NCBI GenBank assembly: GCA_027031265.1
Contig: JALVRO010000203.1
Location: 1 to 33,173 of the forward strand
Origin: Bacteroidales bacterium
GTDB taxonomy: Bacteria; Bacteroidota; Bacteroidia; Bacteroidales; S143-33
Direction of reading: 5' to 3'
DNA length: 33,173 bases
Under the pieces are notes generated by a model. That model worked only from the letters and a program-made list of their open reading frames with translations. It did no database searches and was not told the DNA's origin. A program made the position numbers and the translations under genes. The stretch's first letter is position 1, and each line of letters starts with the position of its first letter. Below are positions 4,899 to 9,080 of the stretch, in pieces.

Positions 4899-6032
4899 TC
4901 AGGCTTTTTCCTTTGTGGCATGCTCTGCCTTGCGCTCTTTGTTCATTATAAGAGTCTGCTGACCAATGGATTCCTGGTGTATTAGTTTAAAAAGCTTTTC
5001 CACGAATGAGCTGGAAAAGCCTTTTTCCCCTGCTACCTGTTGTGCCCGCAGAATAATCTGCTGCCAGCGTTTCTCCTGGAATATGGTCATATTGTATCTT
5101 TTTTTCAGCTCGCCAATACGTCTAACAACATTCATACGGTCCGAGAGTATCTCCATAAGCAGACTATCAAAAACATCAATCTGTGCCCGCAGCTTTACCA
5201 GTTCTTCTTCCAGAAGACGGTCTTGTGCTTGCGCTTTTCTAAGTTGCAGATTTGACAAAAGTTCCATGAGTTGATCTGGGGTTATTTGCTGGTGGGCATC
5301 ACTCCAGGCCTGCTCTGGTGTGATGTGAGCCTCAATCATTAGTCCATCAAAGCTAAGATCCATTGCCTTTTGCGCAACACTCTGGAGCAGGTCACGGCGT
5401 CCTGCAATATGGCTCGGGTCATTAATGAGCATGATGTTAGGCAACTGGGCTTTAAGGTCCAATGCAATTTGCCAGTTTGGTTCATTACGATATATTGATT
5501 GACCATAAGTAGAAAAACCACGGTGTATAGCGGCTATGCGTCTTATTCCTGCATTATAGATACGCTCTATTGCGCCTATCCACAGGTCTAAGTCTGGGTT
5601 TATAGGATTTTTTATCATAACAGGTAAATCCACACCTTGTAGTGCGTCGGCTATTTCCTGCATAAGAAAAGGATTGGCTGTCGTACGCGCACCTATCCAC
5701 AATATGTCAATGCCATATTTCAGTGCTTCATACACATGGCGGGCCGAGGCCACTTCTGTTGTAGTCATCATACCTGTCTCTTGCTTGACACGTCTGAGCC
5801 ATGGCAAACCCCTCTCGCCAACACCGCTAAAGGTATTAGGCCGTGTGCGTGGCTTCCATATACCAGCACGAAAGATTTTTATACCCCGGCCAGAGAGAAG
5901 ATGCGCAGTAGAGAGGACCTGCTCCTCTGTCTCAGCGCTACACGGACCGGCTATTATGATTGGCCGCTCTCCCAGATCCATGTCCCACTGCTTCATTGGG
6001 AGGATATCCAGATTATTATTCTTTCCATTCAT
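4899..6032 (-). CDS. Bifunctional 3-deoxy-7-phosphoheptulonate synthase / chorismate mutase type II
   Basis: DAHP synthase core (IIAGPCSAETEEQVL...FRAGIWKPRTRPNTFSGVGERGL...INDPSHIAGRR) followed by a C-terminal chorismate mutase helix region (LRAQIDVFDSLLMEILSDRMNVVRRIGELKK). Confidence 0.93.
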   Translation of the reverse strand: MNGKNNNLDILPMKQWDMDLGERPIIIAGPCSAETEEQVLSTAHLLSGRGIKIFRAGIWKPRTRPNTFSGVGERGLPWLRRVKQETGMMTTTEVASARHVYEALKYGIDILWIGARTTANPFLMQEIADALQGVDLPVMIKNPINPDLDLWIGAIERIYNAGIRRIAAIHRGFSTYGQSIYRNEPNWQIALDLKAQLPNIMLINDPSHIAGRRDLLQSVAQKAMDLSFDGLMIEAHITPEQAWSDAHQQITPDQLMELLSNLQLRKAQAQDRLLEEELVKLRAQIDVFDSLLMEILSDRMNVVRRIGELKKRYNMTIFQEKRWQQIILRAQQVAGEKGFSSSFVEKLFKLIHQESIGQQTLIMNKERKAEHATKEKA

Positions 6033-6921
6033 GGCTCAATGTTTTTGTTGTTAAAATGTTTGGTTGTGTGATGTTTAATATTTCGTAAATCATGTTTGCC
6101 CTGTGAATGAGAATGTTAAGGTCTTTTTTATTACCGCTGGCTATTGCCTGACGAAAAGCCAGCATGTTGTCGATATAAGCATCCAGCACATCAAGCATAT
6201 TATCTCTATTCTGTAAAAAGATTGGTGTCCACATGCTTGCAGCGCTATTGGCAAGTCGGACTGTGGAGCGGAATCCACCGCCTGCCATATCCAGAATATT
6301 ATTCTCGTCCTGTTCCTTATCCAGTACTGTCAGGGCAAGGACAAATGAACTAATATGCGATATATGTGACACATAGGCAGCATGGAGGTCATGAGAATCG
6401 CTGTCAATGTAAGAAATATTCATGCCTATAGCCCTATAAATTTCCTTTACAAAGCTCAGGGCGTCTCTATCAGTGTCCTGTGCATCTACGACCAGAACTT
6501 TTTTGCCTGTAAAAAGTCCAATCATTGCAGCCTTTGGTCCTGAGTATTCTGTGCCTGCCATAGGATGTGTGGCCACAAACCTTTTGCGACGGGGATGGTT
6601 TTTTATTGCTTTTATCAGAGTCACTTTGGTAGAACCCACATCTATAACAACTTGATTGTCTACCATGTCTAATACTTCTAAAGCCAGCTGTGGCAGGGCA
6701 TCAACAGGCACAGACAATACAATCAGATCGCTATCCCTGACACCTCTGTCCAGACTCACTGCCTCGTCTACCAGACCTAATTCCAGCGCTTTGCGCAGGT
6801 TCTGCGGATCTTTATCAATACCATAAACTTTTTTTATACCGAGCCGGTGCTTAAACTCCAATGCCAGGGAACCGCCAATAAGGCCTACACCCACAATGGC
6901 AACAGTTAGATTAGTGTTCAT
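6016..6921 (-). CDS. tyrA: Prephenate dehydrogenase
   Basis: N-terminal GVGLIGGSLALEFK NAD-binding motif, THPMAGTEYSGP, and operon context. Overlaps the downstream gene by 17 nt. Confidence 0.9.
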   Translation of the reverse strand: MNTNLTVAIVGVGLIGGSLALEFKHRLGIKKVYGIDKDPQNLRKALELGLVDEAVSLDRGVRDSDLIVLSVPVDALPQLALEVLDMVDNQVVIDVGSTKVTLIKAIKNHPRRKRFVATHPMAGTEYSGPKAAMIGLFTGKKVLVVDAQDTDRDALSFVKEIYRAIGMNISYIDSDSHDLHAAYVSHISHISSFVLALTVLDKEQDENNILDMAGGGFRSTVRLANSAASMWTPIFLQNRDNMLDVLDAYIDNMLAFRQAIASGNKKDLNILIHRANMIYEILNITQPNILTTKTLSHEWKE

Positions 6922-8095
6922 ATTGAATTTGTTTTTTATGTTGATGGTTAATTATTCTCTTCAAAGCAGTCAACAGGTTCGTTGTACCTGCAGCCAAAGA
7001 CAAACGCACATACTTATGTCCATTTTGACCAAAGATTGCACCCGGAGTAATGAATATGTCATACCTGCTTAGCACATAATCAGAAAACTCATAAGAGTCT
7101 TTAAATCCCTGTGGAATAAGCGCCCACAGGAACATACCGACCTGTCCTTGTTGTGCACTGCATTGCAGTTTTTCCAGTATCTTTAACCCCACAGAATGAC
7201 GTTTCTGGTAAATCATGTTTATTCTCTCATACCAGCTATCTCCTACTTGAAGTGCTTTAGCTGCTGCATGCTGTAGAGGCAGAAACATGCCTGAGTCAAC
7301 ATTACTCTTAACCCTGACAATAGCATCTATATATTCCTGGTGCCCCAGTACAACACCTATTCTCCATCCAGCCATATTATGTGACTTACTCAGAGAGTTA
7401 AGTTCAAGCGCCACTTCCCTTGCTCCTGGTATGGACAACAGGCTCAGAGGCTCGGCACACAGAATAAAGCTATAAGGATTGTCATTAACCAGAAGAATAT
7501 TATGCTCGCCCGCCCATTGTACCAGACGCGAAAACAACTCTCTGTTCGCACGCACACCTGTAGGCATGTGAGGATAATTAAGCCATATTAGTTTTACATT
7601 CCTCAGATCCATACTCTCCAGCTCATCAAGGTCAGGAAGCCAGCCGTTTTGTGGTAAAAGATTATAAGTCTGGGCTTTAGCTCCCAGCATACGGGCCACT
7701 GCTGCGTAGGCAGGATATCCCGGATCCGGTACAAGAACCGTCTCCCCAGGATTGACAAAAGCCATTGTTATATAAAAAATTCCTTGTTTTGAGCCCATCA
7801 TAGGCAAGACCTCTGTCTCCCAGTCCAGCCTGACTCTGAAAAGCCTGTCATACCACTGGGCAAAAGCCTGGCGCAATTCATTCAGCCCCTTATATGGCTG
7901 GTAGCCGTGTGAATTTTTGTCCTCTACCAGCGACTGAACTACAGTAATAGCAGATTCAGGCGGAGGCAGGTCAGGATTTCCAATACCCAGATTAACAATT
8001 TCCCTTCCCTGGGCCTGTAGCTGGCGAATCTGACGTAGCTTTGTTGAGAAATAGTACTCACGTATTAGAAATAATCTTTCTGCTGGTGCTATCAT
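6911..8095 (-). CDS. PLP-dependent class I/II aminotransferase, first structural gene of the aromatic operon
   Basis: Fold type I signatures: NLGIGNPDLPPP, GSKQGIFYITMAFVNPG, NSLSKSHNMAGWRIG. Overlaps tyrA by 11 nt. Confidence 0.92.
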   Translation of the reverse strand: MIAPAERLFLIREYYFSTKLRQIRQLQAQGREIVNLGIGNPDLPPPESAITVVQSLVEDKNSHGYQPYKGLNELRQAFAQWYDRLFRVRLDWETEVLPMMGSKQGIFYITMAFVNPGETVLVPDPGYPAYAAVARMLGAKAQTYNLLPQNGWLPDLDELESMDLRNVKLIWLNYPHMPTGVRANRELFSRLVQWAGEHNILLVNDNPYSFILCAEPLSLLSIPGAREVALELNSLSKSHNMAGWRIGVVLGHQEYIDAIVRVKSNVDSGMFLPLQHAAAKALQVGDSWYERINMIYQKRHSVGLKILEKLQCSAQQGQVGMFLWALIPQGFKDSYEFSDYVLSRYDIFITPGAIFGQNGHKYVRLSLAAGTTNLLTALKRIINHQHKKQIQYEH

Positions 8096-8123: not shown

Positions 8124-8164
8124 CAAAAAGCCCTGGATAGAAAAAATCTACCCAGGGCTTTTTT
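8124..8164 (-). terminator. Attenuator 2 terminator hairpin upstream of the aromatic operon
   Basis: Minus strand AAAAAGCCCTGGGTAGA-TTTTT-TCTATCCAGGGCTTTTTG: 17-bp stem (one G-U on this strand; A/C mismatch on the other) ending in a T run. Confidence 0.85.
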
Positions 8165-8192
8165 GCTGTTGTCAAAATAATACTATAACAGC

Positions 8193-8270
8193 TCACCTAC
8201 CCCGGGTAGATAAGTAGCTGTAAAAAAAGAAGAAATAAAAATATGTATAAAATGGTGCCATAATCCTCAT
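8193..8270 (-). CDS. Leader peptide 2, MRIMAPFYTYFYFFFFYSYLSTRGR* (6 Phe and 5 Tyr of 25 aa)
   Basis: Codon-by-codon translation ATG AGG ATT ATG GCA CCA TTT TAT ACA TAT TTT TAT TTC TTC TTT TTT TAC AGC TAC TTA TCT ACC CGG GGT AGG TGA; directly upstream of terminator 8124-8164 and the aromatic operon. An alternative start at 8259-8261 gives 22 aa. Confidence 0.85.
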   Translation of the reverse strand: MRIMAPFYTYFYFFFFYSYLSTRGR

Positions 8271-8300: not shown

Positions 8301-8333
8301 AAAAAGGAGTTTCAATCTAAGATTGAAACTCCT
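8301..8333 (-). terminator. Attenuator 1 terminator hairpin
   Basis: Minus strand AGGAGTTTCAATCT-T-AGATTGAAACTCCT followed by TTTTG; perfect 14-nt arms (8305-8318 / 8320-8333). Confidence 0.85.
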
Positions 8334-8373
8334 GAACAATAACTTAAAGGTTCCGGGCTTTTGTCCAGGAGCT

Positions 8374-8415
8374 TCAGGTTAAAAAATAAAAATATGAAAA
8401 TGCAAAATTTCTCAT
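8374..8415 (-). CDS. Leader peptide 1, MRNFAFSYFYFLT* (4 Phe and 2 Tyr of 13 aa)
   Basis: ATG AGA AAT TTT GCA TTT TCA TAT TTT TAT TTT TTA ACC TGA, about 20 nt downstream of the predicted transcription start and upstream of terminator 8301-8333. Confidence 0.72.
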   Translation of the reverse strand: MRNFAFSYFYFLT

Positions 8416-8442
8416 CACTTGCTATAAAATTTTGTTATTAGA

Positions 8443-8472
8443 CAAATATAAACAAATCGTATTACATACAAA
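8443..8472 (-). promoter_or_regulatory. Bacteroidota-type sigma-A promoter for the attenuated aromatic operon
   Basis: Minus strand TTTG (8469-8472), 18-nt spacer, TATATTTG (8443-8450), matching TTTG / TAnnTTTG. Predicted start about 8436, roughly 20 nt before leader peptide 1. Confidence 0.65.
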
Positions 8473-8534: not shown

Positions 8535-9080
8535 TCATATCATTGTCGGGCCAAAGTCATCCGGGAAAAAGCGAGGCATATCAGGGCCGCCATCCCAATT
8601 TATTGGTCTGTGTATGTGGCAATATGGGCCTTTGCCGGTGCGGTCGTAGTAATCCTGATGATAATCTTCTGCAGGCCAAAACCGGTCATAGGGCAAAAGA
8701 CCTGTTTTTACATCATATCCCAGACTTAATAATTTCATTATCACCTGCTGTGCAATTTTCTTCTGATTCTCATTCAGATAAAAAATGTTTGACCTGTACT
8801 GGGGACCAATATCAGGCCCCTGGCCATCTTCCTGTGTAAAGTCATGTATCTCAAAGAAATATTTAACCAGATCCTCATAAGTAATTTTCTGTGGGTCAAA
8901 TTCCACAAGCACGGCCTCGTAATGACCTGTTGTACCAGTCTTTACTTGGTCATAAGTAGGTTTATCCACATGTCCGCCTGTGTATCCGACAGTTGTAGAA
9001 ACCACACCATCTAATTGTTTAAACAGATGCTCAACACCCCAGAAGCATCCAGCTGCAAAAACTGCTTTTCCTGTTTCCAT
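8535..9080 (-). CDS. msrA: Peptide-methionine (S)-S-oxide reductase MsrA
   Basis: AVFAAGCFWGVEHLFKQLDGVVSTTVGYTGG...YEDLVKYFFEIHDFTQEDGQGPDIGPQYRS...AEDYHQDYY, MsrA signatures. Confidence 0.97.
   Translation of the reverse strand: METGKAVFAAGCFWGVEHLFKQLDGVVSTTVGYTGGHVDKPTYDQVKTGTTGHYEAVLVEFDPQKITYEDLVKYFFEIHDFTQEDGQGPDIGPQYRSNIFYLNENQKKIAQQVIMKLLSLGYDVKTGLLPYDRFWPAEDYHQDYYDRTGKGPYCHIHRPINWDGGPDMPRFFPDDFGPTMI

Follow-up and report, generated by a model that had tools for sequence, protein, structure and literature searches.

A probable tandem leader-peptide attenuator of the trp/phe type ahead of an aromatic amino acid operon in a Bacteroidales bacterium

The 440-nt intergenic region between msrA (9080–8535) and an aminotransferase gene (8095–6911), both on the minus strand, contains two consecutive units, each with an aromatic leader peptide, an antiterminator and a terminator. 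The upstream unit, attenuator 1, is very probably a ribosome-mediated transcription attenuator of the trp/phe type, the first of two in series before an operon that encodes, in order, an aminotransferase, TyrA and a DAHP synthase/chorismate mutase fusion. Its presence in the sequence is confirmed. The sequences of the units, their computed folding preferences and their conserved anatomy and geometry are what the analysis shows. The analysed stretch of DNA (the window, 33,173 nt) belongs to a genome that is 96.5% complete and assembled in 346 contigs.

Anatomy of the leader region

The features of the region and of the operon behind it are as follows, in the direction of transcription.

8535–9080, minus strand: msrA, upstream of the leader region
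8443–8450, minus strand: putative promoter, TATATTTG, a perfect match to the sigma-ABfr −7 consensus TAnnTTTG (motif match)
8374–8415, minus strand: leader peptide 1, MRNFAFSYFYFLT, 13 codons, stop codon UGA at 8376–8374 (ORF)
8341–8380, minus strand: 1:2 protector hairpin 1, AACCUGAAG (8380–8372) with CUUUAAGUU (8349–8341), 8 of 9 positions paired (folding)
8361–8376, minus strand: antiterminator 1, 5′ arm, which opens at the stop codon; UGAAGCUCCUGGACA is 8376–8362 (p = 0.005 versus shuffles)
8324–8339, minus strand: antiterminator 1, 3′ arm; UGUUCAGGAGUUUCA is 8338–8324
8301–8333, minus strand: intrinsic terminator 1, 13-bp stem 8333–8321/8317–8305, UUA loop, U run to 8301
8193–8270, minus strand: leader peptide 2, MRIMAPFYTYFYFFFFYSYLSTRGR, with Phe or Tyr at 11 of 25 residues (ORF)
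8193–8213, minus strand: 1:2 protector hairpin 2, UUAUCUACC (8213–8205) with GGUAGGUGA (8201–8193) (folding)
8199–8211, minus strand: antiterminator 2, 5′ arm, within the leader 2 ORF; pairs with 8158–8146 over 13 bp
8125–8163, minus strand: intrinsic terminator 2, 17-bp stem and U-rich tail
6911–8095, minus strand: class I/II aminotransferase, presumed aromatic, the first structural gene (PF00155)
6016–6921, minus strand: prephenate dehydrogenase, tyrA (PF02153; NF006307, 335.5 bits against a cut-off of 295)
4899–6032, minus strand: DAHP synthase fused to chorismate mutase (PF00793, PF01817)

Phe and Tyr make up 6 of the 13 residues of leader peptide 1. The sequences named in the initial annotation of this unit each occur once in the leader region, on the minus strand and where they had been placed. 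The annotation had described a 15-bp antiterminator with two G-U pairs starting from the UGA of leader 1, which is correct; one extra A-U pair brings the helix to 16 bp. As also proposed, the antiterminator takes up 10 nt of the terminator 5′ arm, the segment common to both being 8324–8333. The terminator had been called perfect, and its complementary arms (8333–8320 and 8318–8305) are present, but pairing all 14 bp would leave a 1-nt loop and 13 bp is the realistic stem. The competing hairpin between AACCUGAAG and CUUUAAGUU likewise exists, but it is interrupted by one C-A mismatch. Attenuator 2 (8125–8270, minus strand) is a second complete unit of the same design, placed in series with attenuator 1, and both leaders mix Phe and Tyr codons.

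The TAnnTTTG motif (8450–8443) begins 35 nt ahead of leader 1, and a TTTG lies upstream of it at 8469–8472 on the same strand, with a spacer of 18 nt. A Bacteroides study gives TAnnTTTG as the Bacteroidota sigma-ABfr −7 consensus (PMC7366714). Placed from TATATTTG, the transcription start would fall at about 8436–8437. In the survey described below, 57 of 68 loci have the same motif no more than 100 nt ahead of their first leader, against 8% in shuffles; it mostly lies 24–40 nt before the leader ATG.

Dinucleotide shuffling of the 440-nt region (3000 shuffles) yields an aromatic leader in 8% of cases and a strong terminator in 0.1%, and never the two together (0/3000); the real sequence has two such combinations. 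When the rest of the window was scanned for a leader plus terminator unit, no further place scored. It is highly improbable that the hairpin at 8305–8333 is a plain terminator for msrA and the short ORF a chance product of the A/T-rich spacer. Such a reading draws on the position of msrA, a gene of the same strand whose end lies 200 nt upstream, and on the fair frequency with which Phe/Tyr-rich ORFs arise in the shuffled spacer. It is opposed by the promoter motif between msrA and leader 1, by the failure of shuffles to produce leader and terminator together, and by the recurrence of the same plan and spacing before orthologous operons, where the first leader mostly stands behind its own promoter motif. 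It also leaves the antiterminator unexplained.

Folding of the two attenuators

The response of attenuator 1 to translation was modelled by masking the ribosome footprint during folding, with the footprint edge placed 13 nt beyond the A-site codon, counted from its first base. Since the loop-proximal 7 bp of terminator 1 can coexist with the antiterminator, the probability of the terminator was measured over the basal 6 bp of its stem. Without a ribosome, the core of antiterminator 1 has a probability of 0.02, and the 1:2 hairpin and the terminator prevail; the probability of the hairpin is 0.96, in keeping with the earlier proposal that it competes when the leader is untranslated. With the A site at successive codons, the antiterminator core rises from 0.06 at Y8 to 0.43 at F9 and 0.74 at Y10, and falls to 0.50 at F11, 0.37 at L12, 0.10 at T13 and 0.00 at the stop codon. 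The base of the terminator follows the opposite trend across these positions. Setting the footprint edge at 10 or 15 nt moves the pattern by about one codon. In this model, attenuator 1 would favor antitermination only if the ribosome stalls on one of the last aromatic codons.

From these parts we infer a sequence of events that extends from the start of transcription through translation, stalling and termination to the logic of two units in series. RNA polymerase would start near 8437, and a ribosome would translate the 13-codon leader 1. Where charged tRNA-Phe and tRNA-Tyr suffice, the ribosome would reach the UGA and cover the antiterminator 5′ arm (8376–8362); with antiterminator 1 blocked, the terminator at 8333–8305 would fold and transcription would end. 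Where charged tRNA is scarce, the ribosome would stall at F9-Y10-F11 and prevent the 1:2 hairpin, while the antiterminator arm would stay largely accessible. The 16-bp antiterminator could then form and remove 10 nt from the terminator arm, so that polymerase would proceed to leader 2, a presumed repeat of the Phe/Tyr charging test. If leader 1 were not translated, the 1:2 hairpin would restore termination. The initial annotation had read the geometry in this way, with release at the UGA leading to termination and an upstream stall to antitermination, and the masked folding and the comparative evidence below both support it, the comparative evidence more strongly.

Attenuator 2 behaves differently at equilibrium, where the full-length RNA always folds into terminator 2, which is far more stable than antiterminator 2. 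Because the terminator wins every such fold, any switching by this unit could, in the model, only be kinetic. In masked folds of the RNA before the 3′ arm of terminator 2 exists, antiterminator 2 has a probability of 0.98 as long as the stall is at codon 16 or earlier, and of 0.00 once it is at codon 20 or later.

Conservation among Bacteroidota

The comparative survey covers 98 homologous loci: 17 from related genomes, 80 from Bacteroidota and a few others, and the window; these loci share ancestry and are not phylogenetically independent. A strict scan, which required an aromatic leader with a terminator behind it, is positive in 60 of 98 loci; the opposite strand gives 0 of 98. The corresponding figures for a looser scan are 61 and 4. 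After filtering, the union of the two scans contains 69 of 98 loci, and in these 69 an aminotransferase orthologue comes after the leader, either directly or behind a prephenate dehydratase gene. They include Bacteroides, Phocaeicola, Prevotella, Salegentibacter, Saprospiraceae, Chitinophaga, Hymenobacter, Pseudarcicella and many Bacteroidales MAGs. No attenuator was detected in the remaining 29 loci. Among the loci in which no aromatic leader attenuator was detected are those of Pedobacter and Sphingobacterium (L060, L066, L072, L074, L089), and Sphingobacteriaceae may regulate the orthologous gene differently.

A DNA similarity search with the leader region against 30 relatives returned one short, weak match and nothing useful. 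The aminotransferase was not found in three genomes of the same genus at the threshold used, and there is therefore no close orthologue to compare. The attenuator is conserved in plan and not in sequence.

The conserved plan extends to distances. In a set of 79 attenuators, the best antiterminator was taken as the helix that occupies part of the terminator 5′ arm; it is significant against shuffles at p ≤ 0.05 in 56 of 79 cases and at p ≤ 0.01 in 39. In 97% of the 79, a gap of 3–18 nt (median 11 nt) separates the end of the aromatic run from the start of the antiterminator, versus 33% in shuffles, where the aromatic run is defined by us and the shuffles preserve composition and not history. 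This gap is roughly the length of RNA occupied by a ribosome in front of its A site. What is conserved is how far the antiterminator lies from the regulatory codon, as would be expected if a stalled ribosome were the sensor. The position of the 5′ arm relative to the leader stop codon is variable (24 after it, 12 across it and 43 inside the ORF), and the two attenuators of the window represent two different kinds of placement.

Most relatives have a single attenuator. Two units were found by script in 10 loci (L001, L021, L035, L038, L040, L053, L067, L083, L094, L099), and an eleventh tandem, L018, whose first leader is MSENTRTYYYYNYYRLKPGGGVLC, was judged by eye. TAnnTTTG is absent from the inter-unit spacers of all 10 script-found tandem loci. 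Tandems occur in 4 of 10 operons without prephenate dehydratase versus 7 of 59 with it, a weak difference (Fisher p = 0.046) that counts the by-eye L018. The antiterminators of L035 are not significant against shuffles. The second leaders of L040 and L053, loci that otherwise differ, share the motif FFFFG(F/Y)PPKG, hinting at selection on peptide or RNA beyond codon identity.

Two terminators in series should multiply. We consider it unlikely, though worth weighing, that one attenuator regulates while the other is a relic or constitutive, attenuator 2 perhaps mainly setting a low basal level. The equilibrium folds of the full-length RNA, in which attenuator 2 never prefers antitermination, point that way, as does the single attenuator of most relatives. 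Both units of the window nevertheless keep a long antiterminator (16 and 12–13 bp; p = 0.005 and 0.01 versus shuffles), antiterminator 2 dominates up to codon 16 and is gone from codon 20 before its terminator is complete, and tandem copies recur in 10–11 loci.

Leader composition, related systems and implications

The codon mix of the leaders varies with the genes of the operon. About 1 kb separates leader and aminotransferase in 59 loci, and all 59 have a prephenate dehydratase-like gene upstream of the aminotransferase; where the spacer is short, the gene is present in 0 of 10 operons. Leaders of the 59 operons with prephenate dehydratase mix Phe and Tyr (mean F/(F+Y) 0.56), and leaders of the 10 operons without it are Tyr-rich (0.28, or 0.22 minus the window), a difference with a Mann-Whitney p of 4e-5 in a test that ignores the kinship of the loci. 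Near-pure Tyr leaders, such as MYYYAYYYLNGNKGSYVLL and MATILYTASYYYYYANA, occur in L018, L021, L052, L063 and L071, whose operons have no prephenate dehydratase. The window is an exception: its operon lacks prephenate dehydratase, and leaders 1 and 2, with F/(F+Y) of 0.67 and 0.55, are the most Phe-rich of that class.

Prephenate dehydratase (PF00800) was not found in the operon, in the whole genome (G000) or in three congeners (G001–G003), and the Phe part of the signal is therefore left with no obvious end product. Chorismate synthase is present in the genome, and TrpA has no match above the cut-off there. The only chorismate-binding match in the genome (L107) lies within an apparent pabA/pabB/pabC folate cluster. 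By the usual routes, the organism seems capable of making Tyr but neither Phe nor Trp. Two contig-end pieces, L113 (G000:C204:2–721) and L114 (G000:C94:8–1006), together resemble the alpha subunit of indolepyruvate:ferredoxin oxidoreductase, each piece being below the cut-off for that family. Such an enzyme is a possible alternative source of aryl-pyruvate for the aminotransferase of the operon. Some anaerobic Bacteroidales make Phe from phenylacetate with an enzyme of this kind and an aminotransferase; speculatively, this route would give the operon a role in Phe synthesis.

The dependence of leader composition on operon content also bears on the nature of the signal. Attenuation by an RNA-binding protein or a small molecule (a riboswitch, T-box or TRAP-like system), in place of Phe/Tyr-tRNA, is hardly credible. 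Alternative folds with or without translation would suit it, yet no Rfam model, T-box and riboswitch models included, reaches its gathering score in the window, and low-threshold matches are at chance level. Apart from the stems, what is conserved is a run of aromatic codons at ribosome distance, and the Phe/Tyr content of that run follows the operon genes. The Rfam Phe_leader model (RF01859) was rejected as a match, scoring 15.3 bits against a cut-off of 55, at chance level and in attenuator 2 only. Phe/Tyr-tRNA charging, read by a ribosome on the leader, remains our preferred reading.

Leader-peptide attenuation is a textbook mechanism that was worked out in Proteobacteria. As in the enterobacterial trp, phe (pheL/pheA) and his systems, a short ORF with many codons for the regulated amino acid precedes a biosynthetic operon, the 1:2, 2:3 (antiterminator) and 3:4 (terminator) helices compete, and the stop codon lies where a ribosome terminating on it would cover strand 2. 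The window differs from these systems in its phylum, in the lack of sequence similarity, in its mixed Phe and Tyr codons and in the presence of two units in series; unlike enterobacterial attenuators, its leaders show no Shine-Dalgarno-like sequence. A codon-enriched ORF, a terminator, a mutually exclusive antiterminator at the footprint of a ribosome on the stop codon and a conserved arrangement are all found, which would place attenuator 1 in the leader-peptide class on sequence grounds. Vitreschak et al. (2004; FEMS Microbiol Lett 234:357) reportedly computed attenuators of amino acid operons, and their abstract is said to mention Bacteroidetes/Chlorobi. Lopatovskaya et al. (2010) are likewise said to have predicted leader-peptide attenuators of amino acid operons by comparative genomics. 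In the literature searched, which did not extend to Vitreschak et al., we found no paper describing a Phe/Tyr leader from Bacteroidota.

According to Naville and Gautheret (2010), Proteobacteria and Actinobacteria were the only groups with known leader-peptide systems before their own Firmicutes cases (PMC2965389). A Bacteroides thetaiotaomicron transcriptome study describes, in general terms, leader-like sORFs in long 5′ UTRs; the passages concerned give no aromatic operon or mechanism (PMC7366714). For the tandem form, the Salmonella mgtCBR leader has two short ORFs, each acting on alternative hairpins; its attenuators sense ATP and proline and have been termed a singular example (PMC3641672). 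The window resembles mgtCBR in that each of its two leader ORFs comes with alternative structures of its own; no TAnnTTTG lies between its two units, and a single transcript is predicted. Unlike mgtCBR, both leaders of the window carry the same codon class, and each has its own intrinsic terminator. The predicted mechanism is that of the known trp/phe/his attenuators, here in a tandem variant and widespread in Bacteroidota, a phylum on which the literature searched has little.

We tentatively suggest, as a possibility short of an expectation, that leader-peptide attenuators control the Phe/Tyr operons of Bacteroidota, with a codon mix that reflects which genes the operon holds, and that in several lineages two units for the same signal form a gate in series, multiplying termination and broadening the control range. 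In the lineage of the window, Phe codons would persist despite the lack of prephenate dehydratase, perhaps because phenylpyruvate, the product of a 2-oxoacid:ferredoxin oxidoreductase, is turned into Phe by the regulated aminotransferase. Few RNA regulators of amino acid synthesis appear for Bacteroidota in the literature searched, and an attenuator design with ribosome-sized spacing recurs across the phylum, including Bacteroides, Prevotella and Flavobacteriaceae. The tie between leader composition and operon gene content amounts to a natural experiment on what leaders sense, and the presence of two attenuators in series in several lineages raises the testable question of what reason a cell has to check one signal twice.
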